This document shows, in pieces, positions 1,802-63,123 of a stretch of DNA of 64,000 nucleotides. The position numbers were made by a program, and so were the translations under genes. The notes under the pieces are model-generated. The model was given only the letters and a program-made list of their open reading frames with translations. It was not told the DNA's origin and did not search any database. The stretch lies in NCBI GenBank assembly GCA_037447655.1, contig JBBHKE010000387.1, positions 1-64,000 of the forward strand. The letters are read 5' to 3'. Each line of letters opens with the position of its first letter. Positions within the stretch are counted from its first letter, which is position 1. The stretch is from Zygnema cylindricum (lineage: Eukaryota > Streptophyta > Zygnematophyceae > Zygnematales > Zygnemataceae).

Positions 1802-2596
1802 TGCAATTGAGTGTCTTCTATTGGATTACACAATTCAGGAAGCCTCTAGATACCTTTAATTAAGCCCACTTTCAGCAACAACCACTACTGCCCAAGAGGA
1901 CAAATTGACAGTTTCACTGCACCCTTGTGCACCGTGGACTCCCTTGAGTCTGTAGCAAAAAGAGTCACTGAAAACGGCCAACTAGCTCATTAGTTATGAG
2001 ATGGCAAAGATGCCAATTTAGTCAAAGCTCTCAAAGGGAGAGGTGAGTGTCTAAAAAATATGCTAAGTCCTACTTCCCTCTCTTAACCCCTATCTACTAC
2101 AGTACGACCCAATCACATAACTGTAAAGTACAGAAAGGTACTACGACAGATGTTTTTTTCGTACGGCCTGTGTACAACAAGGCTACTGAGTTGACGTGTG
2201 TCAGCCTTTCACTCGTCCGTATGCTCCCTGAAATTTCTACGACCAAATGTTATCCCTCCACGTGGCGCTAGGTCATGCCACGTCCATAAACGCCAAAGTG
2301 ATCATTCCGGGATCTTGACAGCGATATATGCCGTAGGATTAAATGCGACATCGAATATTAGCCGTTGAAACAAATGTCCGATTCATTTGTTTCATGCAAA
2401 ACGACGTTCGCACTAATTATTAACTTGTTCTATGTTCATTCGTTCATTATTTAGTTAATTGGTTTCAAGATTATATCACAGTTTAAATAGTTATCAAACT
2501 CTATGTATCTTAACTGACTTCTACGATAGACTGGTAAGAGCTGACGGCTACGCCGCACTTTGCCGGTCGGAGGTTTGAGTCCTGCCAGACACAACC
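1802..2596 (-). repeat. 5' LTR of A0, lacking the first ~210 bp
   Basis: Homologous to the complete A-family LTRs at 9217-10257 and 60624-61662. The inner end (CA in element sense) is at 1802, next to a degraded PBS. U3 holds an inverted ACGT pair: CCACGTGGC at 2258 and GCCACGTC at 2277. R/U5 holds two hairpins (GACTC/GAGTC at 1937-1950 and TGCAC/GTGCA at 1918-1931). The LTR stops at 2596 just after its tRNA-like module, where another LTR begins mid-sequence. Confidence 0.8.
2519..2592 (+). other. tRNA-like module T1 in LTR
   Basis: A-box-like TAGACTGGTAAGAG at 2527 and B box GGTTTGAGTCC at 2572-2582, spaced as in a tRNA gene. It is antisense to the element. The downstream T-run is lost at the LTR junction. 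Not a functional tRNA: acceptor and anticodon stems do not form. Confidence 0.55.
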
Positions 2597-3344
2597 TCTC
2601 TAAAACTCTATCTAGTGAAGCACGGAACCAATCATAATACTGTATCGTACAAAAAGGTACAGGTGCCGTTGTACTTTATGAACGACCATTGTACGACATC
2701 GCCAATAAGTCGACACATGTCATTTTTGGATTCGATCCTAAAATCCATGGAGATGCCGTATTCCAATATGGTTGTGCCACTTGTCATTCGATGTGACGTT
2801 GACCGCAAACCCCCAAAAAAGTATTCCACGATCTTGGCATGCTTCGCGGCCATCCTATTAAAGAGGATTTCAATCGTAGTCATCATAAATACTTGCGCGA
2901 TATTTGTTTTGCCTTTGAAACAAATTGCGCGATATTCGTTTTGCATATTCCGTACGCCGTACATTACAAACTGTTTCTATGTGCAAATATCGGGTTAAAT
3001 GAAATAACCTACGTGTACATATTAATGTATTTATCAAACCCTATATCGTATAACTTTGATTCTAGTCTAATTAGTTAAGGCTACCGGTTACAAGCAGCTT
3101 TGACGGACGGTAGGTACCAGGTTAAAATCCTGGGTCTGTCAAGTTCTATTTTGGTAAATCTACCAATCTAAAGGTTGTCCCTGTCTGGATAGCATAGGCG
3201 GCCATGGCTCTATCTCCCTCTCCAACTTTTAGTGACTGCGATAAGTGTGGGAGCTGGAGAGAGAAGTTAGAGGTAGACTGCGTGTGCTTCTTTTCTACAT
3301 TTTACACAACCTAAAGAATACTAAAATATCATTTAATTTCTACA
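2597..3344 (-). repeat. 3' LTR of A4, truncated
   Basis: Starts TGTAGAAATTAAATG at 3344 directly after the PPT and matches 7645-8675 along its length. It lacks U5. At 2596/2597 it joins the A0 LTR mid-sequence, which suggests a deletion or ectopic recombination between LTRs. Confidence 0.85.
3058..3152 (+). other. tRNA-like module T2 in LTR
   Basis: A box TAGTCTAATTAG (3063-3074), T-arm CCAGG-TTAAAAT-CCTGG (3117-3133) with B box GGTTAAAATCC, then TTTT at 3149-3152. Antisense to the element. Confidence 0.6.
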
Positions 3345-6621: not shown

Positions 6622-7664
6622 TTATAGGAGTTCATCGTCCTCGTCCTCGGATTCCGCCTCAAGTACTTGTGTGACAAGGGCCTTTTTCTTTCCTCTCGGG
6701 GGTCCACTAGTCTGCCCCTCCTTTAAACGCAACTCGTTTAACTTAGTGCATTCAGCCATATAGTGCCTGGGTTTCTTACAAAAATGGCACAAACCCTTAG
6801 GAGTCCTTGGTTCGAACTCCTCGGTTTGATTTTTCTGACCCTCTCCTTGATAATTTCCAGCCTGTTTCTTGGAATCATTGTTCTTCCAATCGGTCCCAGC
6901 TGCCAAAGCTTGCCCACTCTTTCCTCCCCTTCGGATCTTAATCGTATTCTCCCGAACAAGAATCATCCCTACCACTGAATTCCAAATCCACCTTGAATCC
7001 GGCATGTCCTGCACACGGTTGACTTTGTTCTCGAACTCATCGGGGAACTTCATCAGTAAACAGTTAACCTTTTCCTTTTCACTAAATACTTTTCCAACAC
7101 TCTCTAGTTCCATGAAAAGTGTAGCAAGCTCATTGCAAAAGTCGAACATCTTCCCCCCTTTGTATACATACTCCTTAATATTTTGATCAGCCAACTGTTG
7201 TTGCACAATCGTACAACTTCGGTACATCTCTATGAGAGCCACCCAAAGATCGGATGCCCTCTCTACGTGCAATTGGGGAGATGAAAGCCCTTGAGTAAGC
7301 TGGTAGAGGATGAAGTGCTTAGCCTCCATATTGTTATATTCCGAGGTATCGATATCATTCTCCTCGTTCCTCGGAATGTGTGATATGAATGCCGAACCGA
7401 TTGCTATTGGTGTGAGAGTCCCCTTCTCCCTTCCTTTGTCTCCTCCGTTGAAGATGGATCTGCATCTCTAGTGAATCTGCCTTATGTAAACCCTGGAGAT
7501 ATCCCAAGACTTGATGGACGCCTCACCCGTCCACTCACTATTCCCCAAAAACGTTTCTCACATAGAGCTCCGGTCATCATACTTTCCCAGTATATGAAGC
7601 CAACTCCATTTATTATGGGCACCCTAGATGGTGGGCCCATAACCTGTAACTCTGAGACCTCCAT
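6622..7664 (-). pseudogene. A4 gag, starting inside the LTR
   Basis: The frame opens at 7664, 20 bp inside the 5' LTR, with MEVSELQ encoded by the LTR. It continues with VMGPP encoded by the PBS, then SRVPIINGVGFIYWES, the usual gag N-terminal block. The first part closes near 7482. The main part (7329-6622) has the capsid region and an intact knuckle CHFCKKPRHYMAEC (CX2CX4HX4C) near 6755-6798, then an acidic tail. Broken between 7330 and 7480. The LTR start codon is conserved in other copies, so I prefer it to the ATG inside the PBS. Confidence 0.8.
7630..7644 (-). other. Primer-binding site, half-tRNA(iMet) type
   Basis: In sense GGTTATGGGCCCACC, directly after the LTR end. It is the exact complement of the anticodon-arm segment of plant initiator tRNA-Met (about nt 25-39), not of the tRNA 3' CCA end. 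The same 15-mer is at 28518 and 60609. It also codes for VMGPP of gag. Confidence 0.85.
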
Positions 7665-7768
7665 AGGTCCTCAAAGTAGGCAGCTTACACGAAACATCAA
7701 GGATAACCCTGACCCCTTTGTATTTCAGCACGATTAACTACCACCTTGGCAGTTAAAAACTTTGACCA

Positions 7769-7803
7769 CCTTCATTCATGTGAAGGCAAGACTCACTTGA
7801 GTC
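7769..7803 (-). other. Paired R/U5 hairpins in A4 LTR
   Basis: Hairpin 1: GACTC/GAGTC (7790-7803, 4-nt loop). Hairpin 2: CCTTCA/TGAAGG (7769-7786, 6-nt loop). Other LTRs have the same layout with different hairpin-2 arms. Confidence 0.6.
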
Positions 7804-8391
7804 GATAGCAAAAAGAATTTCTGAATTTGCTCCTCTAAGGAGTAAGTTATGAAGGGTCAAAGTTGACCTTTTGTAGTGAAGCTCTCTTGGAGAGAGGGTC
7901 CTATCTATGATATTTTTCTAAGTCCTATCTCTCTCTAAAACTCTATCTACTGAAACACGACACCAATCATAATAATGTATTGTATAGAAAGGTAGAGGTG
8001 CCGGTCTACTTTCTGTACGACCATTGTACGACATTGCCAATAAGTCGACACATGTCATTTTTGGATTCGATCTTGAAATCCTTGGAGATGCCGTATTCCA
8101 ATATGGTTATGCCACATGTCATTCGATGTGACGCTAATGGCAAACCGTTGAAATACTATTCCACAATCACGGCATGGTTCGCGGCCGTCCGATTTAAACA
8201 GATTTTAATCGTAGCCGTCATAAATACTTGCGCAATATTTTTTTCGCCTTCGAAACAAATTGCGTGGTATCTGTTTTGCATATTTCATATGCCGTACATT
8301 ACAAACTGCTTCAATGTCCAAATATCGCGTTAAATGAAATAACCTACGTGTACAGATTATTGTATTTATCAAACCCTATATCGTATAACTT

Positions 8392-8483
8392 TGATTCTAG
8401 TCTAATTGGTTAAGGCTAGCGATTACAGGCAACTTTGACGGTAGGTACCAGGTTCAAATCCTGGTTCTGTCATGTTCTATTTT
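8392..8483 (+). other. tRNA-like module T4, best preserved
   Basis: A box TAGTCTAATTGG (8398-8409) fits the tRNA consensus completely and forms a 4-bp D-stem (GTCT/AGGC). The T-arm is perfect: CCAGG-TTCAAAT-CCTGG (8448-8464), with B box GGTTCAAATCC (8451-8461). TTTT follows at 8480-8483. The anticodon and acceptor stems do not form, so a Pol III promoter relic or signal is more likely than a tRNA. Confidence 0.7.
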
Positions 8484-8675
8484 GGTAAATCTACCAATCT
8501 AAAGTTTGTCCCTGTCTAGATAACATAGGCCGCCATGGCTCTATCTCCCTCTCCAACTTTCAGTGACTACCACAAGTGTAAGAGCTGGAGAGAGGAGTTA
8601 GAGGTAGACTGCGTGTGCTTCTTTTTTGCATTTTACACAACCTAGAAAATACTAAATTAGCCTTTAATTTCTACA

Positions 8676-8765: not shown

Positions 8766-9416
8766 TGAAATTTTGTGACCTCTATTGGTACACAGAATGT
8801 CCAACTTATATGAAGCCTCTAGGATAATATTAGCACTTTTGACTTTGGCAATTAATAAGTGCCACCCTGGCATGCAAAAACTCTGACTGACTACGCCTTT
8901 GTGTATTGTGGACTCCCCTGAGCCCGCTGCAAAAAGAATCACTAAATTTGCTCATTTGAACATTAAGTTATGCCTGTTCAAAGACAACATATTTATACTG
9001 ATGGCCTTTAAGAGAGAGGACTTTCAAAAATTAGTCTAAGTCCTGAAAACCATCTAGTAGCTACTCTAAACCAATCAAAAATAAATTACTCTAATTATTG
9101 TACATACAAAGAACACTAGTCGCCGTACTTTATGTACGGATATATTCTCCAACACTTCCGGTCTGCCACGTGGCTAATAGGTCAACGTCATTCTGTCCCT
9201 TTTCTCTTCTGTCATCTGTTGAAATAAGTAGTTTTTAGTATATTTTCTAGGTCTTAATTTGTTAGAAAAGAAAATGTAGGCAGCCTGCCTCTATCTCTTC
9301 TCTCTCTCGCCCCCATACTTGTTGTAGTCACTGAAGGAGAGAGAGAGAGACCAATAGAGCCATGGCTGCCTCAACTCCATAGGAAGGACTAAATAGTGGC
9401 TTAAGCCACTCTCAAC

Positions 9417-9501
9417 AAAAGGTTGAGTCCGGCAGGACTCGAACCCCCGACCGGCAGAGCCCGGCGTAGCTGTTAGCTCTAACCAGTCTATCGTAGAAGT
9501 C
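9417..9501 (-). other. tRNA-like module T5 in solo LTR
   Basis: Minus strand: A-box-like TAGACTGGTTAGAG (9490-9477), B box GGTTCGAGTCC (9445-9435) matching the plant consensus exactly, then TTTT (9420-9417). Confidence 0.65.
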
Positions 9502-10036
9502 CGTTAGGAGATATAGGGTTTCATTAGTATATAAACTATTGTAATGTACTAGATTCATTTAACTGAAACCCTTAACGCCACACATAGATACAGTTCTACA
9601 AAATACGAAGTACTGTACTTGTTTGAAATGGATATCGCGCATTTTGTTTCGACAGCGAAACAAATATCGCGCAAGTATTTATTACGGCCGAGTTTGAATT
9701 TCGCGTCAAATCTAACGGCGCACATCATCGCCGAAATCCCGGAATGGTCATTTTGGCATTTAGTGACGTGGCATGACCTGGCGCCACGTGGGAAGACATC
9801 ATTCGGTCGCGGGAATTCCGAGGAACGTACGGACGAGTGGAAAGTGGACACGTGTCCACTTAATGGCCTTGTCGTACAGAGGCCGTACAGAAAGTACATC
9901 GGCAGTAGTACTTTCTAGTACTATACAGTTTTGTGATTGGTTCGTACAGGCAGTAGATAGGAGCTGTGAGAGGGAATTAGGAAAAACTAGGACTTAGGAA
10001 AATTTAGGTAGATAGTCCTCTCTCTCTGAGAGTTTG

Positions 10037-10043
10037 TATAAAT
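10037..10043 (+). promoter_or_regulatory. TATA box of L5 LTR
   Basis: TATAAAT about 820 bp into the LTR, preceded by a CT/GA stretch. It sits about 70 bp upstream of the hairpin pair and about 200 bp upstream of the LTR gag ATG, which fits a Pol II start near 10070. Confidence 0.6.
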
Positions 10044-10659
10044 TGGCATCTTTGCCACCCTATAACTTATCGGCTGGTTGGTCGTTTTCAGTGATTCTTT
10101 TTGCTATGGACTCAAGGGAGTCTAAGCTGCACAGGGGAGCAATCAAATTGTCAGTTTGCCTTCTTGGGCAGAAGTGGTCGTGGCTTAAAGTAGGTTAGTT
10201 AAACACTATCTAGAGGCTCCCTGTATTCTGTAGTCCAATGGAGGACACAGAATTGCATCATCCTATAGGATGATGCCACGTGTCATTTCCTTCCATTTCG
10301 CCGAGCTGCTCCTAGATAATCATTCCGGCATACCAACACTCACGCGTGCTGTCTTTTTTCTTTTTCCGGCGATCAATTTCAGCCGATCGATCTGATAGCG
10401 CGCCGAATAAATGTTGACCGTTGAAATTCACCGGTCACTGTTCCTTGTTGACCGTTTGAATTTCCTTTGTCCTTTGCGAGCAGTCGATCGCGACATTTAA
10501 TTTTGTCCGTCGAAATCAAATGTTGTTTCATTTATTTCGTGCGGTACTGCATTTCGTACGGTACCACACGTTTTATGTTTCGTTTCATTATGAAAGTTGT
10601 TAAAAAGATTATGTCGCTGTGTCATATATAAATACTTATCAAATGGGATAAATGCATTG

Positions 10660-10755
10660 ATTGATCAAGCCCTAATGGATAAGGCGGACGTCTAGTCGTA
10701 CATCTTTCGTCTGAAGGTCACAAGATCAAATCCTTTTCGTTGTAACCTAACTTTT
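10660..10755 (+). other. tRNA-Arg-like module T10 in A6 LTR
   Basis: AAGCCCTAATGGATAAGGCG (10667-10686) closely resembles the D-arm of plant tRNA-Arg genes. B box AGATCAAATCC at 10723-10733, then TTTT at 10734 and 10752. Confidence 0.6.
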
Positions 10756-10892
10756 ACAAGAGCCTTGTCTTCTACCTATCTTCTCATCTGTCTGAGGCAG
10801 CCATGGCTGCCTGTCAATTCTTAGTGACTACGACAAGTATGAGAACTGCAGGATCCCAAAAAAGATAGAATATAAAATATCACTTTTCAACA

Positions 10893-21490: not shown

Positions 21491-22277
21491 CTCACCTATT
21501 CACCCAATCCTACTGCATTCCTACAATTGTTCTTCTTGGGAGCAAGAAGAGCTTTAGTAAGCATATCGGCAACCATTCTTGTATTTTGCAGATAGCATAA
21601 TTTGATCACCCTAGAGAACATTTTTTCTCTTACAAAGAGTAATCGTACATCCATGTGCTTACTCTTAAAGTGGTGACTCGGGTTAGAGGCTATGGCAATG
21701 GCAGCCTGGTTATCACACCAGATCACCTGTGGCCCAACCTGCATGTATTTTAGTTCTTTTAACATGGATTTTACCTATATGAGTTCTTTGAGGGCCGAGC
21801 TTGCTACCATATATTCTGACTCCATTGTCGATTGCGCTGTAACCTTTTGAAGTTTGTTGCTCCAGCAGCACGTTTTGTTCCCAATCTGCAAAACCAATCC
21901 CGTGGTGAATTTCCGGCTTGGCATGTCGCCATAGCTTGCATCACTCTACGTTTGGAGCCTCATTTCTCCTCCGCCTAGAATGAGTTTGAGGTCTTTTGTT
22001 CCTGCCAAATATCTTAAGACTCTCCATGTTGCATCAAAATCAGATTTTCTCGGATCCTCTAGACTCTTGCTCAGTATCCAGACTGCTCCAGCAATGTCAG
22101 GACGGGTACAGTTCATGAAATATATTAAGCTTCCTACTATTTGTCTGTAAGGTATTTGTGTCATAGAATCATTCTCCCCTGAATCTGAATACTCGCTAAC
22201 AATGACACATGGTTCTGTCTCTTCTCCCTCTATCTTCTGCCAAAATTCCATTGGAGTTAGACATCCTTTTGCCCCTA
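21491..22277 (-). pseudogene. C1 RNase H and RT C-terminus
   Basis: Copia RNase H close to family B. Readable: CLTPMEFWQKIEGEE, RPDIAGAVWILSKSLEDPRKSD, WCDNQAAIAIASNPSHHF (catalytic Asp) and MVADMLTKALLAPKK. Stops and frameshifts occur near 21770-21945. Upstream RT is missing: homology stops at ~22278 where the satellite begins, in the middle of what should be continuous pol. The 3' LTR is adjacent in the correct order. Confidence 0.85.
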
Positions 22278-25200
22278 TTGTTGTTAGCGCATTCTCAAAC
22301 ATGTGTTATAAACATGGTTCATTCTTTATTTTACCTCTTTTGTGACTGCGAACAATAAATGTTGTTTGTTACAAATATCTTTGTTAGGGCAAACTCAAAT
22401 TTGTATTAGAAACAAGGTTTAGGGTTTTTTTTTACTATTTTTGTGAGCGTTAACAATAAAAAGAGTTTGTTACAACTTTTGTTGTTAGCTCAAACACAAA
22501 ATTTTGTTATTAATATGGTTCGGAGTTTATTTTATCTCTTTTTGTGACCGCAAACAATTAACGTTGTTTGTTACAAATATCTTTGTTTGCGCACACTCAA
22601 ATTTTTGTTAAAAATATGGTTTATGACATTTTTTAACTATTTTTATGAGCGTTATCATTATAAAGAGTTTGTTACTACTATTGTTGTTAGCGCAAACATA
22701 AACTTGTGTTATAAACATGACTTAGAGTTTATTTTGTGAACGCGAACAACAAACGTTGTTTGCTACAAATATCTTATTTAGCGCAAACTCAAATTTGTGT
22801 TAGAAACATTGTTTATGATTTTTTTTAACTATTTTGATGAGCGTTAACATTATAAAGAGTTTTTACCACTATTGTTGTTAGTGCAATCTCAAACTTGTGT
22901 TGTTAACATGGTTTGGAGTGTAATTTACGTCTTTTTCTGACCGCGAACAATAAACGTTGTTTGTTAAAAATATCATTGTTAGCGCAAACTCAAATTTGTG
23001 TTAGAAACAAGGTTTAAGGCTTTTTATACTATTTTTGTGAGCGTTAACAATAAAAAGAGTTTGTTACCACTATTGTTTTTAGCGCGAAAACAAACTTGTG
23101 TTATAAACATGGTTCAGTGTTTAATTTACCTTTTTTGTGACTGCGAACAATAAACGTTGTTTGTTACAAATATCTTTGTTAACACAAACTCAAATTTTTG
23201 TTAGAAACAAGGTTTAGGGTTTTTTTTTACTATTTTTGTGAGCGTTAACAATAAAAAGTGTTTGTAACCACTATTGTTGTTAGCACAAACACAAACTTGT
23301 GCTATTAACATGGTTCGGAGTTTATTTTACCTCTTTTTGTGACCGCAAACAATAAACGTTGTTTGTTACAAATACCTTTGTTAGCGCAAACTCAAATTTG
23401 TGTTAGAAACATGGTTTAGGGTTTTTTTTTACTATTTTGTGAGGGTTAACAATATAAAGTGATTGTTACCACTATTGTTGTTAGCGCAATTACAAACCTG
23501 TGTTATAAACATGGTTTGGAGTTTTTCTTTCCTCTTTTTGTTACCGCGAACAATAAACGTTGTTTGTTAAAAATATCATTGTTAGCTCAAACTCAAATTT
23601 GTGTTGGAAACATTGTTTAGAATTTTTTTTTAATATTTTTGTGAGCGTTAACAATATAAAAATTTTGTTACCACTATTTTTGTTAGTGGAAACACAAACT
23701 TGTGTTATAAAACATGGTTCAAAGTTTACTTTGTGAACACGAACAATAAACGTTGTTTGCTACAAATATCTTTGTTAGCGCAAACTCAAATTTGTGTTTG
23801 AAACATGGTTTAGGGTTTTTTTTAACTATTTTGTGAGGGTTAACAATATAAAGTGTTTGTTACCACTATTGTTGTTAGCGCAAACACAAACATGTGTTAT
23901 GCGCATGGTTCCTAGTTTTTTTTCATATTTTTGTGACCGCGAACAATAAACGTTGTTTGTTATAAATATCTTTGTTAGCTCAAACTCGAATTTGTGTTGG
24001 AAACATAGTTTAGGTTTTTTTTTTTTAATATTTTTGTGAGGGTTAATAGTATAAAGAGTTTGTTACCACTACTGTTGTTAGCGCAAACACAAACTTGTGT
24101 TATAAACATGGTTCAGACTTTATTTAACCTCTTTTTGTGACCGCGAACAATAAACATTGTTTGTTACAAGTATCTTTGTTAGCGCAAACTCAAATTTGTG
24201 TTAGAAACAAGGTTTAGGGTTCTTTTTACTATCTTTATGAGCGTTAACAATATAAAGAGATTGTTACCACTATTGCTGTTAGCGCAAACACAAACTTTTG
24301 TTATAAACATGGTTCGGAGAATATTTTTCCTCTTTTTGTGACCGGAAACAATAAACGTTGTTTGTTACAATTATCTTTGTTACCGCAAACTCAAATTTGT
24401 GTTAGAATCAAGGTTTATGGTTTTTTTTAACTATTTTATGAGCGTTAACAATATAAAGTGTTTGTTACCACTATTGTTGTTAGCGCAAACACAAACTTGT
24501 GTTATAAACATGGTTCGAACTTTATTTTACCTCTTTTTCTGACCGCAAACAATAAACGTTGTTTGTTACAAATATCATTGTTAGCGCAAACTCAAATTTG
24601 TGTTACAAACAAAGTTTAGGGTTTTTTTTACTATTTTTGTGAGTGTTAACAATTGAAAGAGTTTGTTACCACTATTGTTGTTAGCGCAATCTCAAACTTG
24701 TGTTACAAACATGGTTCAAACTTTATTTTTCCTCTTTTTCTGACCGCAAGCAATAAACGTTGTTTGTTACAAATATCATTGTTAGCGCAAACTCAAATTT
24801 ATGTTAGAAACAAGGTTTAGTGTTTTTTTTTCTATTTTGTGAGCGTTAACAATATAAAGAGTGTGTTACCACTATTGTTGTTAGTGCAAACACAAACTTG
24901 TGTTATAATCATGGTTCGAAGATTATTTTTTCTCTTTTTGTGACCGCAAACAATAAACGTTGTTTGTTACAAATATCTTTGTTAGCGCAAACTCAAATTT
25001 GTGTTAGAAACATGGTTTATGATTTTTTTTAACTATTTTGATGAGCGTTAACATTATAAAGAGTTTGTTACCACCCACCTGTTATTTAGACCCCGCACTG
25101 CCACCTAAGTGCACCCATAGCTATAACTTTTGAAATATAACTCCAAATCGCGTGATTCTTTCGCGAACGTCTACCAAATTTAGTAATCTATAATCATAAA

Positions 25201-26847
25201 TCCTAAATACCCTTTTATAAACAAGTTCGATCCGCTATTACTGTTATACATGGTTTAGGGTTTTTTTTAACTATATTGTGAGGTTTAACAATATAAAGAG
25301 TTTGTTACCACTATTGTTATTAGCGCAAACACAAACATGTGTTATGAACATTGTTCCGAGTATATATTTCCTCTTTTTGTGACCGCGAACAATAAACGTT
25401 GTTTGTTACAAATTTTTTTTAGCTCATCTCAAATTTGTGTTGGAAACATGGTTTAGGTTTTTTATTTTAATATTTTTGTGAGGGTTAACTCTATAAAGAG
25501 TTTGTTACCACTACCGTTGTTAGCGCAAACACAAACTTGCGTTATAAACATGGTTCAGACTTTATTTTACTTCTTTTTAAGACCAAAAACAATAAACATT
25601 GTTTGTTACAAATATCTTTGTTAACGCAAACTCAAATTTGTGTTAGAAACAAGGTTTATGGTTTTTTTTTACTATTTTTATGAGGGTTAACAATATAAAG
25701 AGATTGTTACCACTATTTCTTTTAGCGCAAACACAAACTTCTGTTATAAACATGGTTCGGAGTATATTTTACCTCTTTTTGTGACCGCGAACAATAAACG
25801 TTGTTTGTTACAAATATCTTTGTTAGCGCAAACTCAAATTTGTGTTAAAAACATGGTTTATGGCTTTTTTTAATTATTTTTATCAGAGTTAACAGTATAA
25901 AGAGTTTGTTTCCACTATTTTTGTTAGTTTTAACACAAACTTGTGTTATAAACATGGTTCAGAGTTTATTTTACCTCTTTGTGAACGCGAACAATAAACG
26001 TTGTTTATTACAAGTATCTTTGTTAGCGCAAACTCAAATTTGTGTTAGAAACAATGTTTATTTTTTTTTTAACTATTTTTGTGAGCGTTAACAATATAAA
26101 AAGTTTGTTACCACTATTGTTGTTAGCGCAAACACAAACTTGTGTTATAAATATGGTTCAGAGTTTACTTTGTGAACGCGAACAATAAACGTTGTTTGTT
26201 ACAAATATCTTTATTAGTGCAAACTCAAATTTGTGTTAGAAACATGGTTTAGGGTTTTTTTTAACTATTTTGTGAGCGTTAACAATATAAAGAGTTTGTT
26301 ACCACTATTGTTATTAGTGCAAACTCAAACCTGTGTTATAAACATGGTTCGGATAATATTTTTCCTCTCTTTGTGACCGCGAACAATAATCGTTGTTTGT
26401 TACAAATATCTTTGTAAGCGCAAACTCAAATTTGTGTTGGAAATATGGTTCAGGTTTATTTTTTAATATTTTTGTGAGGGTTAACAATATAAAGAGTTTG
26501 TTACCACTACTGTTGTTAGCGCAAACACAAACTTGTGTTATAAACATGGTTCAGACTTTATTTTACCTCTTTTTGTGACCGCGAATAATAAACGTTGTTT
26601 ATTACAAGTATCTTTGTTAGCGCAAACTCAAATCTGTGTTAGAAACAAGGTTTAGGGTTTTTATTACTATTTTTATGAGCGTTAACAATATAAAGAGATT
26701 GTTACCACTATTGCTGATAGCGCAAACACAAACTTCTGTTATAAACATGGTTCGGAGTATATTTTACCTCTTTTTGTGACCGCGAACAATAAACGTTGTT
26801 TGTTACAAGTATCTTTGTTAGCGAAAACTCAAATTTGTGTTAGAAAC
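22278..26847 (+). repeat. Satellite array, ~200-bp dimeric unit, ~22 copies
   Basis: Two related ~100-bp halves alternate. Half 1 has CAAACTCAAATTTGTGTTAG, GGTTTAGGG, a T-run and GTGAGCGTTAAC. Half 2 has CAAACACAAACTTGTG, ACATGGTTCGG and CGAACAATAAACGTTGTTTG. Half 2 carries the dyad AACACAAACTTGTGTT. AT-rich, head-to-tail, no coding potential. One 166-bp interruption at 25075-25240. Compatible with centromeric or heterochromatic satellite DNA, but nothing here proves function. Confidence 0.9.
25075..25240. other. Non-satellite interruption in the array
   Basis: 166 bp without satellite words, between two satellite segments. No ORF or LTR end recognised, and no clear TSD. Confidence 0.6.
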
Positions 26848-27511
26848 TGTTGTCCATAGCCTTTTTAAGCCATGGGTTACTCACGGAAACACCCACAGAC
26901 TACCTCAAAAACAGCTGTGTTTCAGACGACACAGATTACTCCACAATATACAAAATGATCTCAAACTGCACCAATATGCAGTATACCATATACACTGCAA
27001 ACTCCCAAAGTTACAGCCAAATCCACCAAGGCATCTAGAAGATATAAGCTTCAGAGTTTCCCAAATGTAGCTGACAGCTTCACAAACTAACCACTTAGAC
27101 TGTTCACAGAATCTTACAGAGATATTGGAATACAATGAAACTTCACAAACATATATATTCTATATCATAGAATAACTCCACAAAGTTTCATATGAAAGCA
27201 CCAATCAGAGTGATCATACCAACAGGTCAAAGATGCAGAAAACAGTCCGCCATTACTTTGATTAACTTGACTGCGATACATAAAATAATCTAAGTCCTGC
27301 AAGTTATACTCAGAGTACGGAGGCATACCAGCCGTACTGTATCTACTCTAATAAACCATTTAGTCAAAAGGACAAACCTCTGTTGTACATAATATTTACA
27401 CCGTACTCTTCGTATGTCAGAAACCAAGCTACCACTAAGCAACTACTAAGCTACCACTACCGTACAATCATCATTACTCGAGATCTATCCTAGTCATATT
27501 ATCCGCAGTTG

Positions 27512-34888: not shown

Positions 34889-35108
34889 TTACACGTAGAA
34901 ATTAATGGTCTTTTAAAGTATTTTCTAGATCTGAATAGAAATATAGAAAGAAGTCGAAGCAGTCTACCTCTAACTTCTCTCTCTAACTCTCAAACATGTC
35001 GCAGTCATTGAGAAATAGGAGAGGAAGCTAGAGCCATGGCTACCTAGGCTATCCAGAGGTTTACGGGATATAAATATTAGTTTATTTATAATTAAGGATA
35101 TATTTACT

Positions 35109-35200
35109 AAAATATATATGCCAACTCCAGAAATTGAACCTGCAACCTTCCGGCCGGAAATCAGCGGGTAGCCGGTAGCTTTAACCGTTAACTCTAGAGG
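35109..35200 (-). other. tRNA-like module T35 in solo LTR
   Basis: Minus strand: TAGAGTTAACGGTTAAAGC (A-box region, 35197-35179), B box GGTTCAATTTC (35140-35130), TTTT at 35112-35109. Confidence 0.55.
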
Positions 35201-35770
35201 TAGTGGTACGTATTGTAGGGTTTGATAATTACTTAAATATTTATACGTAGGATAGTTCATTTAACTGCAATTGTTTTACGGGGACATAGATCCTGTAATG
35301 TAAAAGTACAGATGACGGTACGGAATAGAAACGAATACCGCGCATGTATTTATTACGGCTACGATTAAATGTGAATTTAATCGGACGGCCAGAATTAACG
35401 CCGAGATCCCGGAAGAGGATTTCGGCGGTTTGTGGTCATCGCCACATCTGATAACACGTGGCAAAATTACATTGGATCGTGGTATCTCCGAAGATTACGG
35501 CACAAAATCCGGAAATAACATGTGTCGACATTTAGGCCATGTCGTACAATGTCCGTACAGAAATTACACCGACAACTGTACTTTTTGTGTACGGAGGAGT
35601 AATGTGATTGGCTCCGTACATCAGTAGATAGAGTTTGTGAGAGAGATAGGACTTAGAAAAATTAGGAGATAGGACCCTCTCTCCCAGAGAGCTTCTGTAC
35701 AAAATGTCAACTTTGACCCTCCCTAACTTACTGCTCAGGGGAGCAAATTCAGAGATTCTTTTTGCTATCA

Positions 35771-35803
35771 ACTCTAGGGAGTCTTTCCTTCACGGGGGTG
35801 AAG
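35771..35803 (+). other. Paired R/U5 hairpins in solo LTR
   Basis: ACTC/GAGT (hairpin 1, first pair lost) and CTTCAC-GGGG-GTGAAG (35788-35803). Confidence 0.6.
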
Positions 35804-35933
35804 TTGGTCATAGTTTTTGTCTGCCAGGGTGGCAGTTGTTCTTGCTGAAACACAAAGGGGTCAGGGTTATCCTAGAGGCTTTTTGGAAGCTGTCCACTCT
35901 GAGGACTTATGGAGGTCTCAGAGTTTCATTGCA

Positions 35934-39323: not shown

Positions 39324-39529
39324 TGTTGAAATTACTAGATTTATAGGGTATTTTCTAGGTCTAAATAGATCAGTAAAATAAGAAAAAGAAAAGGGCGGAC
39401 AACCTGCCTCCACCTCCTCTCTCTAGCCACCATACTTGTTGTAGTCACTAAACGATAGGGTGTGTGGTTGAGCCATGGCTACCTTAGTTCAACAGGCAAG
39501 ATAAAAGAGTGACTTATGTCACTCTCAAC

Positions 39530-39614
39530 AAAAGGCTGAGTCAAGTAGGACTTAAACCTCCGACTGGTAGAGTACAACGTAGTCGTTAGCTCTAACCAGT
39601 CTGTCGTAGAAGTC
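39530..39614 (-). other. tRNA-like module T39 in shared LTR
   Basis: Minus strand: CAGACTGGTTAGAGC, B box GGTTTAAGTCC (39558-39548), TTTT (39533-39530). Confidence 0.6.
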
Positions 39615-40181
39615 CGTTAAAGTACATGGGGTTAGATACATATTTAAACGTATACATTAAATTGAAACCGATAAACTAAAATGTGAATAAAAGAACATAG
39701 AACTAGTTAAAGTTTCAGTGTGGACGTCATTTCGCACGAAACAAATGAATTGGACATTTGTTTCGACGACCGACATTTAATGTCAGATTTAATCCGACGG
39801 CATATATCACTGCTAGGATCGTAGAATGGTCAATTTGGTGTTTATAGACGTGGCATGACCTGGCGCCATGTGGAGGGATAACATTTGGTCGCAAAAATTC
39901 CGGAGAACATACGGACGAGTGGAATGATGAAATGCGTCCACTTAGTGGCCTTGTCGTACACAAGCTGTACGGAAAGGACGTCGACCGTAGTACCTTTCTG
40001 TACTTTACAGTCGTGTGATTAGTTTGTACTTCAATAGATAGGGGTTGCGAGAGGGATTTAGGACTTAGGAAAATTTGGTAGGTAACCACCTATATCTTAG
40101 AGAGCTTTGTATAAAATTGACATTTTTGAAGGCTCATAACTTATCGGCTAGTTGGTCATTTTTAGTGATTCTATTTACTAC

Positions 40182-40215
40182 GGACTCACGGGAGTCCACA
40201 ATGCACAAATGTGCA
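40182..40215 (+). other. Paired R/U5 hairpins in shared LTR
   Basis: GGACTC-ACGG-GAGTCC (40182-40197) and TGCAC-AAAT-GTGCA (40202-40215). Confidence 0.65.
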
Positions 40216-40331
40216 ATCAGAATGTCAGTTTATCTTCTTGGGTAGCAGTGGTTGTTGCTTGAAATGGGTTAGTTAAAAACTATCTAGAGGCTTCCTGAAT
40301 TCTATAGTCCAATGGAGGACACATAATTCAA

Positions 40332-41270: not shown

Positions 41271-42817
41271 TTTCTGGAGGGAAGAAGAAGGCACTTGTGG
41301 TCACAAAAGTGAAAGGAGAAACCGAGGATGAGTCATATGATAAGGAGGATGGGGAGTTTTTTCTTGACAAGAGTCTGGTTGAGAAAGAGATCCCTCGGAA
41401 ACAGAAATATGCTCTTGGAGCAATTCGAGAAGCTCCAAAAGAAAGATAGATCATCGACTCAGGTGTATCCATGAATATGTGTCGTGATAATCATCTTTTT
41501 ACTAATCTAAGAAAATTCCCTACTGTACAGATAAAGTATGGGGATGGGAGAGTGGTTACAACAGATCTAGTGGGATCGGTAGATTTCAAAGTCTTAGTGG
41601 AGGGAAAGACTTCAATAGAGTAAAAATCTTGTCTCTACGTCTGTGTTAGATGACAAAGAGTTTGATACCTTCACTAGAAAGGGAGTCTTTACAGCTAAGT
41701 ATGAGGATGAAGTTTACTTCACGGCAGATAAGGGTATCCAAGGAATGTTTTAACTTAACCTGGGTAATGAAAAGAAGAAAACTTCCTATGTTGGTGTTCC
41801 ATAGTTGATGATTTGGCATAAGCGATTAGGGCATGTGCATTTTGATAGGTTGAGGGAAATGAAAAAAGCTTGGGGTAGTAGAAGGCTTTCAGTTTGAGGA
41901 TAATAAAATGATAGATGATTGTAGTGGCTGTGCTCAAGGTAAGGCTCACAGACTTCCCTTTCCCAAACGTGCCAGATATACATGTGATAAGGTACTACAT
42001 CTGGTCAACACAGATATCTGGGGACCTACAAAAGTACTTTCGGTTGGAGGAAAGAGGTTTATGTTGACAATAATTGATGACTAGTCTAGGTACTCCAAAG
42101 TCTACTTCCTAAAAAGAAAGTTTGAAACATCTACTTACTTCACAAAATATAAAGCCTGGAGTGAGAAGTTGCATAGAACCCCCATTAAGAGAATAACGAG
42201 TGATAATGGGGGAGAATATACCTCTAACAACTTTGAGGAATACTTGAGAGATGAGGGAGTTCAGCACCAGAAAACCGTAGCATATAACATGGAACAAAAT
42301 GGGGTAGCTAAGAGGCTGAACTGAACACTAGGAGATAGTGCATGTAGTATGTTGGCTGACAAGAAAATAGGAAAGAGATTTTGGGCATAAACCATGAACT
42401 GTGCCAACTACATTAAGAATAAAGTCCTTACCTCAGTTGTAAATGGAATGACACCTTATGAGAGATGGGTTGGAAGGAAACCAAATATCTCTCACCTTAA
42501 AGTATTTGGTAGCTAAGTTTACAATATTGACACGGATAGAAAATACTGGAAACTAGATGCTAAGGGAAAACCTGGATACTTTGTAGGATATGATGAGGAT
42601 GTTAAGGGATATAGAGACTATGACTTAGCAAAGAGAGATATCATTGTGGTCAAACATCTAGTTGTCATGGATGAAGGGAAGTCATTTGACCCTTTTAAAT
42701 ATATCAAAAAGATAAGAATCTGATTTGAGGCTGAAGGTGAAGAGGACTTTGTCTTTCCCGAAAAGAACATGAGTGAAATTAGGATCGCAGATACAAGGGA
42801 GATCTAAGACATAGAAG
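41271..42817 (+). pseudogene. A2 protease-integrase remnant
   Basis: Protease core near 41452-41482 reads IIDSGVSMNMC, close to DSGAS-HM. The zinc module WHKRLGHVHFDR and CSGCAQGK (near 41812-41945) is complete. Integrase: HTDIWG is nearly kept (NTDIWG, 42005-42022), SDNGGEY kept, EQNGVAKRLN has the catalytic Glu changed to Lys. Many stops. The hinge is interrupted at 42817 by B1 and resumes at 48907. Confidence 0.85.
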
Positions 42818-43783
42818 TGTTGGTTTCAAAGCTTAATCCTCAGTAGATAATGCTGTGAGGGGAGGTTTATAACTTATAATATTTTTGGGTCTTTGAAGTT
42901 GTAAAACTTACCTTTTATAGTGTGACAATGGATGAGTAACTCTGGAGTGTAGTGTACGGTCTGATAGACACGCGTCTGTATGAGGGACAATACAGAAAAG
43001 GGGGATTGAATCTTGACACATGTAACACATCGAACGAAGTCAAACCGGCGCATCGGACGGACGAAAAAGAATAACAGACATCTGGGAAAACAAGTGTGAA
43101 GAATAAATACAGGACGTCGATTTGAACTGAACTAACGGTTACGATTTGAGTGTGGACCACAGGTGATGAAGTACTCCGTAAGCACCCCAAATATTCGTAC
43201 AAGATTAACTACAGCCGGTTGGACTTATTTGAATACTGCTGACTAAGCAGCAACATTGTGTGTACGGCGCCAAATGAAGAAAACCTGAAGAAACGTTTTT
43301 TGGAGTTTAGTGAATTTAAATTTAGTGTGACACTGCTTGATTTAGGTTAGTGGCAAACGAGATTTTTTGGAAGTTCATTAGGTACTCTATCGTACTATAG
43401 TACAGTACGACTATTCATATACTACAATTTGATTGGTAAAAAGGATCAGTATATAAACAATCAGTGTATAAAAGTTTAGGACTAAAAAATATTTTGTTAA
43501 CCAGTTTTGAGATAATGCAAATCTGAATGCAGTTTTTGTGAAACTTGCAAATGTCATATCTTATGGTTTACAGATTCAATTGTGCTGTAATTTTGGGAGT
43601 TGACAGTGTGTATGCAGGTGATATATTATGCTGAATTTGGTGTAAGTTGTATTTATGGATCAGGTTTTATAGTGAGTGAAACATCAGTGTTTGATTGGTT
43701 TCTTGGTTAGCTTCTTTGTAAGTTATGTCTACTTCTACCACTACTGCTGCAGCTCCACCTGTACCGGTATTCATAGAACAACA
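42818..43783 (+). repeat. 5' LTR of B1 (966 bp)
   Basis: TGTTGGTTTCAAAGC to AGAACAACA. TATA candidates TATATAAAC (43450) and GTATAAAAG (43466). A gag start codon lies at 43725, 59 bp inside the LTR end. No tRNA-like module. Confidence 0.92.
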
Positions 43784-44725
43784 TCTTATGGGCCTGTCCC
43801 CGAGAATACCAGTCTTTAATGGGCAGAAGTATGCTTACAAGGCTGATATGGTTGAGTCATATTTTGAAACTGCAGGTTTGCTAGAAGTGATAGATGGATC
43901 TCTTGATGAAGCTGATCCATCATGGTCGAAGAAAATTTGTCAGCTCAGAACGCTCTGAAGCTTTGCCTTTCGGAGAACATGGTTATTTCTCGAATCAAAA
44001 TGAAGAAGGCGATTGATATTTGGACTTCCCTCAAATCGTCTTATGAGAAAAAAATGTTAAGGAGAGCTTTTGTTGGCTAAAAAAATATGGGATTACAAAT
44101 ACTCGGGGGGAACGATGGCGGAATATACTGATAACTTCCGAACTCTTATTGATTCTCATGCGTGTGCTGGTGGCTCATTTCCATAGTTTAAGCAGGCTAC
44201 TTTAATCAATAGAGGTCTTCCTAGCAGTATGAAAGATGCATCTGCTGAATTGAAAAAGCATGATAAGTCTAGCTAGACACTTCAGTTAGCAATCAATATT
44301 ATTTTGGAAGAAGAGTCTACCTGAAAAATGCTAAATGGAGAAAAGCAAGTAGAGGCTTTTAACACAAATTTTGTCATAAGAAGACGGTTTAATCAGTCAA
44401 AGAATCAGTTTAATCAGCTCAGAAATCAAGGTCCTAGGAATCCAGGACAAAATAATCAGCTTAATCAAGGGCAAAATAGGCAGTCTTTTACTACATGCTT
44501 TTACTGTTCAGAGAAAGGTCATGGATATCACTACTGTCATAAGTTCAAAAAGGCAAATGAAACAGGTCTATATAGGCTAGAATGGCAGCAAAGTCAGTTT
44601 AATCAAGGCTTTTCTGGTAATCGTTTACAAAACGCCTCATTGTTTTCTTCATTTGTAAATCAGGAAGATGAGTCATTTGGTCTCGATGAGCAAGATACAT
44701 CGGAGTTATTTGCGATGGCGGCGGC
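43725..44725 (+). pseudogene. B1 gag, starting in the LTR
   Basis: MSTSTTTAAAPPVPVFIEQ is LTR-encoded. The frame then crosses the PBS (LMG) into LSPRIPVFNGQKYAYK, the usual gag N-terminal block. A 1-bp frameshift near 43925 ends this frame at 43956. The capsid continues in other frames with stops near 44185, 44274 and 44322. Knuckle CFYCSEKGHGYHYC (CX2CX4HX4C) near 44497-44538 is intact, preceded by an Asn/Gln-rich stretch (44390-44490). B2 shares the frameshift and these stops. Confidence 0.85.
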
Positions 44726-47918: not shown

Positions 47919-47941
47919 CTAAGACTAAACCTTTAGGGGAG

Positions 47942-49590: not shown

Positions 49591-50212
49591 CTCAGAATTC
49601 CCGCGACCAAATGTGATCTCTCCACGTGGTACCAGGTCATGCCAGGTCACAAAAAGCCAAAGTGACCACTCCAAGATCTTAGTGATGATGTGCGCTGTTG
49701 GATAAGAACCAAAATGAAATATTAGCCGTTATAAATACTTGCGCGATATTTGTTTCGCTATCGAAACAAAATGCGCGGTATCCGTTTCGAAACCGTATTG
49801 TACTCCGTACTTTCAAAACTGTATCTATGCATGTCGTATACAGTTTCAGTTAAATGAATTAGTTCACTCCTAAATAATTATTTTTTTATCAAACCCTATA
49901 GCATTTAGCATTGGTCCTAGACTAATAGGATAAAGCTGACCGCTACTAGCCAACTTGACGGATGGCAGGCACCAGGATCAAATCCTGGGTCCGTCAAGTA
50001 TATTTTTAGTAACCGACTAAAAAACAACTGCATATTGAGCTAAGGCAACCATGGTTCAACTACTCTCTCTCTCTCTCTATCCTTTAGTGACTCCAACAAA
50101 TATGGTGGCTAGAGAGAGGAGGTGAAGGCAGGGTGTCCACCCTTTTCTTTTCTTTTTTAATACTGATATATTTAGACCAAGAAAATACTCTATAAATCTA
50201 GTAATTTCAACA
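49591..50212 (-). repeat. 3' LTR of A3, missing ~420 bp of its end
   Basis: Starts TGTTGAAATTACTAG at 50212 after the PPT and closely matches 61045-61662. Cut near 49591 next to A2 RT; 49575-49590 cannot be assigned. Conserved U3 core between arms CTCTCTCTA (50071) and TAGAGAGAG (50110). Confidence 0.85.
49912..50007 (+). other. tRNA-like module T49 in A3 3' LTR
   Basis: A box TAGACTAATAGG (49918-49929), T-arm CCAGG-ATCAAAT-CCTGG, B box GGATCAAATCC (49975-49985). An outer 9-bp stem CTTGACGGA/TCCGTCAAG (49954-49962, 49990-49998) encloses the T-arm. TTTTT at 50003-50007. Confidence 0.65.
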
Positions 50213-57736: not shown

Positions 57737-57759
57737 CTAAGACTAAACCTTTAGGGGAG

Positions 57760-59640: not shown

Positions 59641-60623
59641 AGGACTCGTCCTCGATTTCTCCTATCACCTTTGTGACCACAAGTGCCTTTTTCTTCCCTC
59701 CGGAAGAACCCCCTCCACGGTCTTCTTGGAGCCTCAACTTCGACAGCTTGACACAATCCGTGATAAAGTGTCCTGGCTTTTTGCAAAAATGACAAAGGCC
59801 TTTTGCGGACCTCGGTCCTCCAGACTGATCTCTTTCCCCTTTGTACGGTTTCTTCGGATTCTTCTTCCATCGGTCCCCTTCTACAGCCAGAGCTTGAATG
59901 CTCTTTCCTCCTATCCTAATCTCCATGGTGTTTTCCTGCACAAGTATCATCTGGACCACTGTATTCCACTTCCATGAACTGTCAGTCATTTCCTGTACTA
60001 GGTATACTATGTTCTCGTACTCGTCTAGTAACTTCATGATGAGAGTGTTAACTTTCATCTTCATTGTACCTGTCCACCCGGCACTTTCCATCTCCATATA
60101 CAAACAAGAAAGATCATTACAATAATCTAACATCTTTCCTCTTTTGTAAGTGTAACTCACTAGCTTCTGCTGAGCCAATTAGAGCTCTTGAATAGTACCA
60201 TCTCTATAGATATTCACCAAACTCACTCACAACTCCTGGGCTTTGTAAATGTGAAGGTGAGGGGTGGCCAAAGCTTAAGTGAGGTGCCTTAGAATGAAGT
60301 TCTAGGCAAGCATGTTTACGTCTTACCACATTTGAGTATCGTTTTCAACGGTCTTCCCAACCGCCGCTCCCAATGCCGTGGCAATATGAGTGAGGGGTGT
60401 CTCTTTCCCTTTCCCTTTTTTGGACACACTGCTGTCCCAATCATCTGCCTCCTTCGCTAAAGCAGTCGTTGCTGCAAGAAACCTTACACCTACAAATCCT
60501 GGTGGAGTTTCTAAAGGTGGACGTTTTACTTGTCCACTAACGATACCCCAGTATCGTTTATCGCACAAAGCCCCTATCATCATGGCTTCAAGGTGGGCAC
60601 CCTAGAGGGTGGGCCCATAACCT
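59641..60623 (-). pseudogene. A3 gag remnant
   Basis: N-terminal part 60583-60323 (MMIGALCDKRYWGIVSGQVK) and capsid plus nucleocapsid 60178-59641 (KRGKMLDYCNDLSCLYMEME; knuckle CHFCKKPGHFITDC intact near 59750-59795). The frame breaks between 60180 and 60320. The first block is shortened between the PBS and MMIG. Its start would be in the LTR. Confidence 0.85.
60609..60623 (-). other. Primer-binding site of A3
   Basis: In sense GGTTATGGGCCCACC, identical to A4 and A7, right after LTR end TATTGCA. Confidence 0.85.
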
Positions 60624-61662
60624 GCAATAATGTGTCCTCGATTGGACTACATAATTCAGGAAGCCTCTAGATAGTTTTTAACTAACCCACTTTAAGCCAC
60701 AACCACTGCTGCCCCAGAAGGCAAACTGACAGTCTGAAAGCACCTCTTTGCAGGTTGGACTTTCTTGAGTCCGTAGCAAAAAAAATCAATGAAAACTGCC
60801 AACCAGCCGATAAATTATGGGGTGGCAAAGATGCCTATTTTATAGAAACCCTCAAGAGGAGAGGTGACTGTATCTCAAAAACACTAAGTCCTAATTCTCT
60901 CTAATAACTCCTATCTACTAAAGTACGGACCAATCATATTACTGTACCGTACAAGAAAGTACTAATGTTGGTGTACCTTTTGTATGACCAATGTACGACA
61001 AGACTATTACGTGGACGCGTGCCCTCGTTTTACTCGTCCTTAGATTCCTCAAAATTCCCGCGATTAAATGTGATCTCTCCACGTGGCGCCAGGTCATGCC
61101 ATGTCACAAAAAGCCAAAGTGACCACTCTTGGATCTTAGCGATGATGTGCGCCGTTGGATAAGAACCAAAATGAAATCTCAGCCGTTATAAATACTTGCG
61201 CGATATTTGTTTCGATGTCGAAACAAAATGCGCGGTATCCGTTTCGAAACCATACTGTACTCCGTACTTTACAAAATTGTATCTATGTATCTCTTATACA
61301 GTTTCAGTTAAATGAATTAGTTCACTCCTAAATAATTAAATATTTATCAAACCTTATAACATTTAGCATTGGTTCTAGACTAATAGGATAAAGCTGAGCG
61401 CTACTGGCCAACTTGACGAGCGGCAGGCACCAGGATCAAATCCTGGGTCCGTCAAGTATATTTTTAGTAACCTACTAAAAAACAACTGTTTGTTGAGCTA
61501 AGGCAAACATGGTTCAACCACTTTCTTTATCCTTCAGTGACTACAACAAGTATGGTGGCTAGAGAGAGGAGGTGAAGGCAGGTTGTCCGCCCTTTTCTTT
61601 TTCTTTTTTATACTGTTATATTTATACCTAGAAAATACTCTATAAATCTAGTAATTTCAACG
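60624..61662 (-). repeat. 5' LTR of A3 (1039 bp)
   Basis: Complete; outer TG mutated to CG at 61662. Close to the partial 3' LTR at 49591-50212. Contains module T61 and ACGT elements (CCACGTGGC near 61078). The R/U5 hairpins near 60736-60772 are degraded. Confidence 0.88.
61370..61465 (+). other. tRNA-like module T61 in A3 5' LTR
   Basis: A box TAGACTAATAGG (61376-61387), B box GGATCAAATCC (61433-61443), T-arm CCAGG/CCTGG, TTTTT at 61461-61465. Confidence 0.65.
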
Positions 61663-62296: not shown

Positions 62297-62317
62297 GCTC
62301 GCAAAAACTGTGACGTA

Positions 62318-62351
62318 CTACACCCCTGTGTAGGGTGGACTCTTCTGAGTC
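62318..62351 (-). other. Paired R/U5 hairpins
   Basis: CTACAC/GTGTAG (62318-62333, 4-nt loop) and GACTC/GAGTC (62338-62351). Confidence 0.65.
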
Positions 62352-62862
62352 GCCAGCAAAAAGAATCACTTAAATTGTTCACTTGGGCATTAAGTTATGG
62401 CCGGCCAAAGATGACCTATAATTACCAAAGCACTCTGGGAGAGAGGCGGCTACCTTAAATTTTTCTAAGTCCTAAGCTCCCTCTCTAAACCTACTACTAG
62501 TGTACCCTAAACAATCAAATGATTGTAAGGTATAATAAGGTACAGGTAAAGGTGTTTTTTTTGTACGGCAATAGTACGGCATGGCTGTTTCTATGACGCG
62601 TGTTAGTTCTTGAGCCGTTGTTGCTCCTCCCGTAATATCGGCAGTTCAACCAAATCTCGCCACGTGTTGTCTGCTGACATTGGCTTGCAAACCACCAAAT
62701 GTCTACTCCGAAATTTCGGCTCCGCCGCGAGTCGTCGATCGCGAACGACATTTGATTTTGTCCGTTGAAATTAGATGTCGTTTCGTTTATTTCGTATGGT
62801 ACAATATTTCGTGCATCACTATTTGAATATTTATCACATAATACATATGTAACGCTTCATCA

Positions 62863-62951
62863 AGACGTATTGGATAAAGTGAACGTCTACGCCGTATGGC
62901 AGTTATCCGGAGGTCACAGGTTCAATTCCTTCTCTTGCCAGCCTATCTTTT
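62863..62951 (+). other. tRNA-like module T62
   Basis: A-box region AGACGTATTGGATAAAG (weak), B box GGTTCAATTCC (62919-62929), TTTT at 62948-62951. Confidence 0.5.
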
Positions 62952-63123
62952 GCATGGGTTGTTTCTTCTGTCTGTCTTCTCCTTATCTGCCTTGTGTCTG
63001 TCTTCTCCTTATCTGAGACAGCCATGGCTGCCTGCCAGTTCTCAGTGACTACAACAAGTATGAGAACTGTAGAATAACCATAGATTTAACAAAAGATAGA
63101 ATATAAAATACTTATTTTCAACA

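Follow-up and report, generated by a model that had tools for sequence, protein, structure and literature searches.

Does a copia retrotransposon of Zygnema cylindricum carry the promoter of a tRNA gene, pointing backwards, in the U3 of its LTRs, and if so, what might it do there? To our knowledge, LTR retrotransposons are taken as Pol II elements, and among them only miniature ones are known to have Pol III promoters. Type-2 Pol III promoters consist of an A box and a B box for TFIIIC, an upstream TFIIIB site and a T-run. The window analysed here, the whole stretch of 64,000 nucleotides, is a nest of copia elements, in which the module consisting of A box, B box and TTTT was confirmed as real at 10/10 sites. 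It is a decayed tRNA-like stretch with Pol III signals that is common to one copia lineage. The sites are homologous and occupy one place in U3, approximately 140-310 bp inside the LTR start, in agreement with the original prediction, and the module lies on the strand opposite to the copia coding frames in the ten LTRs or LTR pieces, which bears out its description as antisense to the element. The ten LTR copies that had been counted are ten real sites but only eight insertions, because T2/T4 and T49/T61 are each the LTR pair of one element. The features, in coordinates of the window, are as follows.

8392..8483, plus strand: T4 tRNA-like module, with A box at 8398-8409 (TAGTCTAATTGG), B box at 8451-8461 (GGTTCAAATCC) and TTTT at 8480-8483
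8365..8380: conserved AT-rich block that contains TATCAAACCCTATA and separates the module from the presumed start of sense transcription
7645..8675, minus strand: T4 LTR (TGTAGA...GTTACA), 5' LTR of the T2/T4 element
7630..7644, minus strand: primer binding site GGTTATGGGCCCACC of the T2/T4 element, following the T4 5' LTR
2597..3344, minus strand: T2 LTR, 3' LTR of the T2/T4 element, end lost; module about 3058-3150, B box 3120-3130
1802..2596, minus strand: T1 LTR, U3 start lost; module 2519-2596, B box 2572-2582
9217..10257, plus strand: T5 solo LTR inside the T10 LTR; module about 9415-9510 on the minus strand, B box 9435-9445
9212-9216 and 10258-10262: T5 TSD TCATC, 5 bp, perfect
10263..10889, minus strand: T10 LTR, U3 part; module about 10660-10750, B box 10723-10733
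8766-9216: remainder of the T10 LTR, split off by T5
34894..35928, plus strand: T35 solo LTR, flanks TTACA / TTGCA (4/5 alike); module about 35109-35205 on the minus strand, B box 35130-35140
39324..40330, plus strand: T39 LTR; module about 39530-39608 on the minus strand, B box 39548-39558
49591..50212, minus strand: T49 LTR, a 3' LTR, end lost; module about 49912-50005, B box 49975-49985
60622..61662, minus strand: T61 LTR, 5' LTR of the T49/T61 element; module about 61370-61463, B box 61433-61443
62304..63123, minus strand: T62 LTR, U5 end not resolved; module about 62863-62950, B box 62919-62929
8530..8612: U3 hairpin with a 19-nt loop at 8562-8580, where conservation within the LTR is highest
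42816..43783, plus strand; also 47940-48906, 52637-53601 and 57760-58724: LTRs of a second copia family, which lack the module

The B box had been described as matching GWTCRANNC or being one or two bases off; the core is exact at 6/10 sites and one base off at 4/10, with none (0/10) two bases off. TTTT starts 14-18 nt past the B box in 9/9 testable copies, the TTTT background being 5% of positions in seven of these U3s. In T1 the LTR is cut at 2596/2597 right after the module, and TTTT is missing. This position is the junction of two LTRs. Modules of type II (T1, T5, T39) lack 8 bases before the B box that are present in the others, and the A box is poor in these young modules.

The carrier is a copia element that is very abundant, recently active and of autonomous type. 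Its LTRs run from TGTTGA or TGTAGA to TTGCA or TTACA, with some ends altered, and measure about 1040 bp when complete. A polypurine tract precedes the 3' LTR, and the 5' LTR is followed by the primer site GGTTATGGGCCCACC or a similar one. This site presumably complements the anticodon arm of the initiator-Met tRNA and not its 3' end, which would mean priming by a tRNA half; such priming is known for Drosophila copia. In the T5 subfamily six LTR pairs were 0.9615-0.9921 identical with a perfect 5-bp TSD in 5/6, and the B box was exact in 19/19 sampled T5-type LTRs, all picked by module likeness. T4-type LTR pairs are older (0.88-0.93 identical), and GGTTCAAATCC is kept in 8/13 sampled copies of that subfamily. 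Between the LTRs of one young pair lies a single uninterrupted frame of 1441 codons that covers gag, integrase and RT, and the other two of the three internal regions listed have two and three long frames. When the 1441-codon frame was searched as three pieces, it gave copia gag, gag-pre-integrase, integrase core and RVT_2; the domain order was PF14223, PF13976, PF00665, PF07727, with the integrase before RVT_2 as in Ty1/copia. The frame and the young LTR pairs therefore place the module in a copia that has transposed recently and would be able to code for its own proteins. The claim of a tRNA-type cassette of A box, B box and TTTT lying antisense in the U3 of a coding-capable copia is supported.

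Among the best 120 matches listed, the RT of the module family showed 35-46% identity, and the named matches were mostly from seed plants. For the second copia family, identity was 34-55% among the best 120 listed (plants, oomycetes and others). That family is represented in the window by a 6.1-kb element in two copies that are 98.8% identical (42805-48906 and 52626-58724). No RT relatives were confirmed in viral and prokaryote contigs. The hairpin loop motif was seen in three viral contigs. The T39 LTR (39324-40330) has a polypurine tract before it and an altered primer site after it, as if it were shared by two internal regions, and positions 22229-26871 form an AT-rich tandem array of approximately 101-bp repeats.

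When the best A+B pair was sought on the module strand, its B box fell at the module in 10/10 LTRs. Based on 150 dinucleotide shuffles per LTR, the observed score was reached in 0-2.7% for 7/10 LTRs and in 29-31% for T1, T10 and T35, and such weak single copies therefore prove nothing alone. The T4 module had the maximal A+B score (19/19), and the best-scoring A box was upstream of the aligned one in T1, T5 and T39. With the same scoring, all four LTRs of the second copia family were at chance. Across the whole window and both strands, A+B+T scores of at least 17 belonged to modules in 6/6 cases and scores of at least 16 in 7/14.

Likeness to tRNA was scored against 24 plant tRNAs, and was reached by at most 3.5% of mononucleotide shuffles in 9/10 modules, T2 being the exception with 11%. 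Scores on the reverse strand (25-33) were near the shuffled means (28-30). Assignment to an isotype was rejected, as the ten modules share none when compared with these 24 tRNAs; the suggested resemblance of T10 to tRNA-Arg is seen in the D arm but does not extend to one isotype common to the ten. Likewise, a functional tRNA gene with cloverleaf and anticodon was rejected on the ARAGORN, Rfam and arm-pairing checks. ARAGORN gave no tRNA, and Rfam gave none at E 10 in the whole window. When short stretches were submitted to Rfam, T4 yielded a tRNA match of 16.6 bits, under the gathering score of 29, T5 yielded no tRNA and the tRNA-like mascRNA at 18 bits, under its cut-off, and T61 yielded neither.

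The genome (352.8 Mb) was searched in part, and a first look gave 298 candidates for the T4 module and 2,404 for the T5 module, 40 of each being scored. All fetched module matches (45/45) were inside copia LTRs: the first 32 in full-length or almost full-length LTRs, and 13 further ones in 11 full-length and 2 partial LTRs. This speaks against separate SINE insertions, the alternative that had been put forward with the original prediction, and on these 45 matches that alternative was rejected. As a tag that does not depend on the module we used the hairpin loop, which is nearer to the LTR start. With up to two mismatches it gave 6,533 + 6,278 matches (12,811), compared with 16 + 12 for the reversed pattern. 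From the exact-loop loci the first 30 by contig order were taken, one of which was masked (n=29). A B score of at least 8 (of 9) was found within 60-164 nt before the loop in 21/29 of these loop-picked loci and in 1.7% of 594 equally long same-strand control windows; a score of 9 was found in 9/29 loci and in none of the controls, and a score of at least 7 in 24/29. In 5/29 loci no B box exceeded the control level, and two of these five represent a single place containing two loops. TTTT followed 12-18 nt behind the B box in 23/24 loci with a B score of at least 7. The 8-nt gap by the B box separates the two types among the loop-picked loci as well, with a B box in both. Against 3,054 exact loops, GGTTCRANNCC was matched 997 times at 85-115 nt before the loop and GGATCRANNC 802 times at about the same spacing. 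Moved 100 nt away, a control made for the first pattern only, GGTTCRANNCC gave 2 matches; the two patterns reversed gave 1 and 2, and approximately 41% of the exact-loop tags fit neither pattern. The contiguous 40 kb beside the window contain four strong R/U5 matches and two hairpins, and both hairpins are accompanied by a B box (scores 8 and 7) and a T-run. Three LTRs of 85-87% identity carry near-perfect modules, which were set aside as evidence because the loci had been picked by module likeness.

The U3 hairpin (8530-8612) and its homologues have a near-invariant 19-nt loop, AGTGACTACAACAAGTATG, and are better conserved than the tRNA module. Of the 19 pairs, five are changed on both sides, and pairing holds in 91% of cells. 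The covariation score and the number of both-side-changed cells beat 500/500 shuffles, and the count of both-side-changed pairs was as high in 67/500 and that of pair types in 477/500. Among 35 sequences, 4/12 pairs changed on both sides. Many type II LTRs also have a palindrome, such as AGAGTGACTTAAGTCACTCT, after the T-run, a second possible hairpin.

To determine how well the module is kept, column identities were taken from the ten-LTR alignment, with eight independent LTRs counted, and from a second alignment. Most of U3 is poorly conserved in the ten-LTR alignment (0.30-0.49), with the exception of the AT-rich block, the boxes, CCATGG, the loop and the LTR start. The B box had a column identity of 0.77 compared to a U3 mean of 0.52 (26/371 U3 windows as high, second alignment), and the columns beside it 0.35-0.49. 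Values for the A box were 0.59-0.65 (108/370 or 65/367 windows as high), and the stretch between the boxes was below both (0.51 in the ten-LTR and 0.45 in the second alignment). The T-run reached 0.71 (74/378), the AT-rich block at 8365-8378 reached 0.70 (46/368) and the hairpin loop 0.88, the top of the LTR. The whole module had 0.53, with 64% of same-length LTR windows as high, and 8.8% of windows across the whole LTR equal the conservation of the B box; over this length the module is unremarkable because R/U5 is more conserved. Within the T4 subfamily, at loci picked by module likeness, the B box had 0.94 versus an LTR mean of 0.86 (95/1,020 windows as high). In a MAFFT alignment of 28 loop-picked U3s, however, the B-box columns were not conserved (0.43; 249/354 windows as high). 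By inspection, types I and II are out of register in this alignment; this notwithstanding, the result is negative as it stands. The identities argue modestly for constraint on the B box and the T-run, weakly for constraint on the A box, and not at all for constraint on tRNA folding.

The LTR tree was ((T10,T62),((T35,(T2,T4)),((T49,T61),(T5,(T1,T39))))), with a midpoint root only and with 6/7 inner branches well supported; all LTRs in it had been chosen for having the module. One origin or repeated capture had been named as the question for such a phylogeny, and a single origin before the LTR split is simplest because the loop-picked loci agree with the module-chosen LTRs. The T61 LTR (60622-61662) is a mosaic, with R/U5 like T5/T39 and a hairpin like that of T39 (up to 0.98). 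Its windows starting at 61322-61397, which cover most of the module, are closer to T4/T35 (0.58-0.76, versus 0.46-0.52 for T5), and the window at 61422 has no clear preference. Segment exchange between subfamilies is a known process for LTR elements, and the mosaic suggests that U3 segments were exchanged here.

With its anatomy, homology, position and genome-wide spacing, and its presence in young coding-capable copies, the module is probably a second, backward promoter or a boundary element. We lean, slightly beyond even odds, to the reading that this tRNA-derived stretch of U3 acts as a divergent Pol III-type promoter by which the LTR is kept open or insulated; binding by TFIIIC and Pol III, transcription and a benefit to the element are what we infer. 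A copia ancestor would have gained a tRNA gene or the head of a tRNA-SINE in U3, in reverse orientation. Its descendants would have kept the B box, a weaker A box, the T-run at tRNA-gene distance and the upstream AT-rich block, and the tRNA fold would have been left to decay. TFIIIC would bind the boxes, and the AT-rich block would position TFIIIB and Pol III. The Pol II core promoter of the element itself is expected at the same spot, where TATCAAACCCTATA offers a possible TATA-like site in either direction. Upstream AT-rich stretches and TATA and CAA motifs are common in plant tRNA genes according to passages of PMC11700998. The block may also serve Pol II alone, which would be a point against the Pol III reading. 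The LTR promoter would be divergent, with Pol II running forwards for the genome RNA and Pol III backwards, the backward product being a short antisense RNA of about 90-110 nt that ends at TTTT. The likeliest benefit would be the open or insulated LTR promoter, with the antisense RNA perhaps a by-product; an open promoter or boundary is favoured over the RNA because only the DNA signals are kept. More tentative is the extension that this copia lineage has long run on a divergent Pol II/Pol III promoter, the backward cassette being needed for expression or escape from silencing, swapped as a unit between subfamilies and of ancestor type for Pol III-driven miniature elements.

It is possible, though we would not bet on it, that the boxes are bound by TFIIIC or a different factor and serve as insulator or enhancer for the sense Pol II promoter, with no productive Pol III transcription. 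B-box-only TFIIIC sites are known in other organisms, and such a DNA element would fit a B box better kept than the A box and a module directly upstream of the presumed core promoter. It would also fit the loss of the RNA fold: the tRNA arms were rejected as a conserved RNA structure, with 3 conserved T-stem pairs, none compensatory. The T-run kept in 23/24 loci, however, is best explained by transcription running through. The odds of this explanation and of the divergent promoter overlap, the TFIIIC step being common to both.

We are more doubtful that the module is a relic of a tRNA gene or SINE in an ancestral LTR, with boxes kept by descent and no Pol III role. Decay of the boxes in many copies, a whole module no better conserved than the LTR average and the weak A box of type II would be expected of a relic, as would GGATCAAATCT in 6/29 loop-picked loci, where the last base of the 11-mer is off and the 9-mer core intact. 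Yet the B box has persisted across deeply split LTR clades better than the bases beside it (0.77 versus 0.35-0.49) and survives an adjacent 8-nt indel, and the T-run is held at tRNA-gene distance though the intervening letters differ.

The module could also recruit Pol III factors as a lure, so that integrase favours LTRs of the same family and nests are formed. Integrase guided by Pol III factors has a precedent in Ty1/Ty3, and the window is a dense nest with T5 in the T10 LTR approximately 400 bp from the T10 module, but this is one clear case only and we consider a lure very improbable. A chance motif spread by common LTR descent is least credible of all: a B box is a short motif, the eight insertions are related to one another and T1, T10 and T35 alone fail to beat shuffles, but the tRNA-likeness shuffles, the window-wide scan, the loop-picked sample, the genome counts of B patterns at the expected spacing and the shifted-spacing control (2 matches) all speak against it.

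If the divergent-promoter reading is true, a high-copy, recently active, coding-capable family would allow a direct test of whether TFIIIC/Pol III helps an LTR to stay open, and the many natural box variants in one genome are usable for such a test. Among known systems, tRNA-derived SINEs (SINE2) resemble the module in A box, B box and T-run; unlike them, it sits at one LTR place in every copy fetched, is moved by copia and shows no boundaries or TSD that can be seen as its own. At Polr3e, an MIR in antisense orientation reportedly makes up a Pol III unit embedded in a Pol II one, but this is a single host locus with a SINE in an intron. In the open-access literature we found no tRNA-type module lying antisense in the LTR of an autonomous copia. 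To that extent the view that nothing of the kind had been described stands, but tRNA-derived LTR promoters as such are known from Helenus (TRIMp3; Kojima 2024), which passages of PMC10886601 present as small non-autonomous LTR elements, one of them in Selaginella. According to the same passages, 'not a few' LTRs in Repbase look like a portion of a tRNA, the screen having kept TRIMs only. Like Helenus as described there, the present element has tRNA-derived A and B boxes inside the LTR, and most of the Helenus ones are no longer predicted to encode a tRNA, again as here. In most fungal Helenus families the primer is the anticodon portion of a tRNA, truncated initiator Met among them, a likeness to GGTTATGGGCCCACC, and 5-bp TSDs are reported in fungi and plants (passages of PMC10886601); PBS, PPT and 5-bp TSD are found here too. 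In size the two differ, Helenus having a total of 311-1263 bp with an LTR of 120 bp in the one plant family (passages of PMC10886601), whereas here LTRs of about 1040 bp surround gag-pol. The element is not a member of Helenus, because that group is non-autonomous, short (311-1263 bp) and non-coding and gag, integrase and RT are present here. The passages and a word search of PMC10886601 gave no orientation for the tRNA part in Helenus. In these passages the author reasons that autonomous partners, because of their dependence on Pol II, are not likely to have long parts of their LTRs in common with such elements. A module in antisense escapes this objection, and, if our reading is true, the copia lineage is a possible source of Helenus-like elements. 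Cassandra, a non-autonomous TRIM with a 5S rRNA promoter that drives the element itself (passages of PMC10853983 and PMC10886601), is similar in having the promoter of a small-RNA gene in plant LTRs, and differs in the 5S type and in being non-autonomous (PMC10853983, in part). If it works, the module would do so as a promoter similar to that of Helenus, reversed in orientation and joined to an element of the Pol II type.
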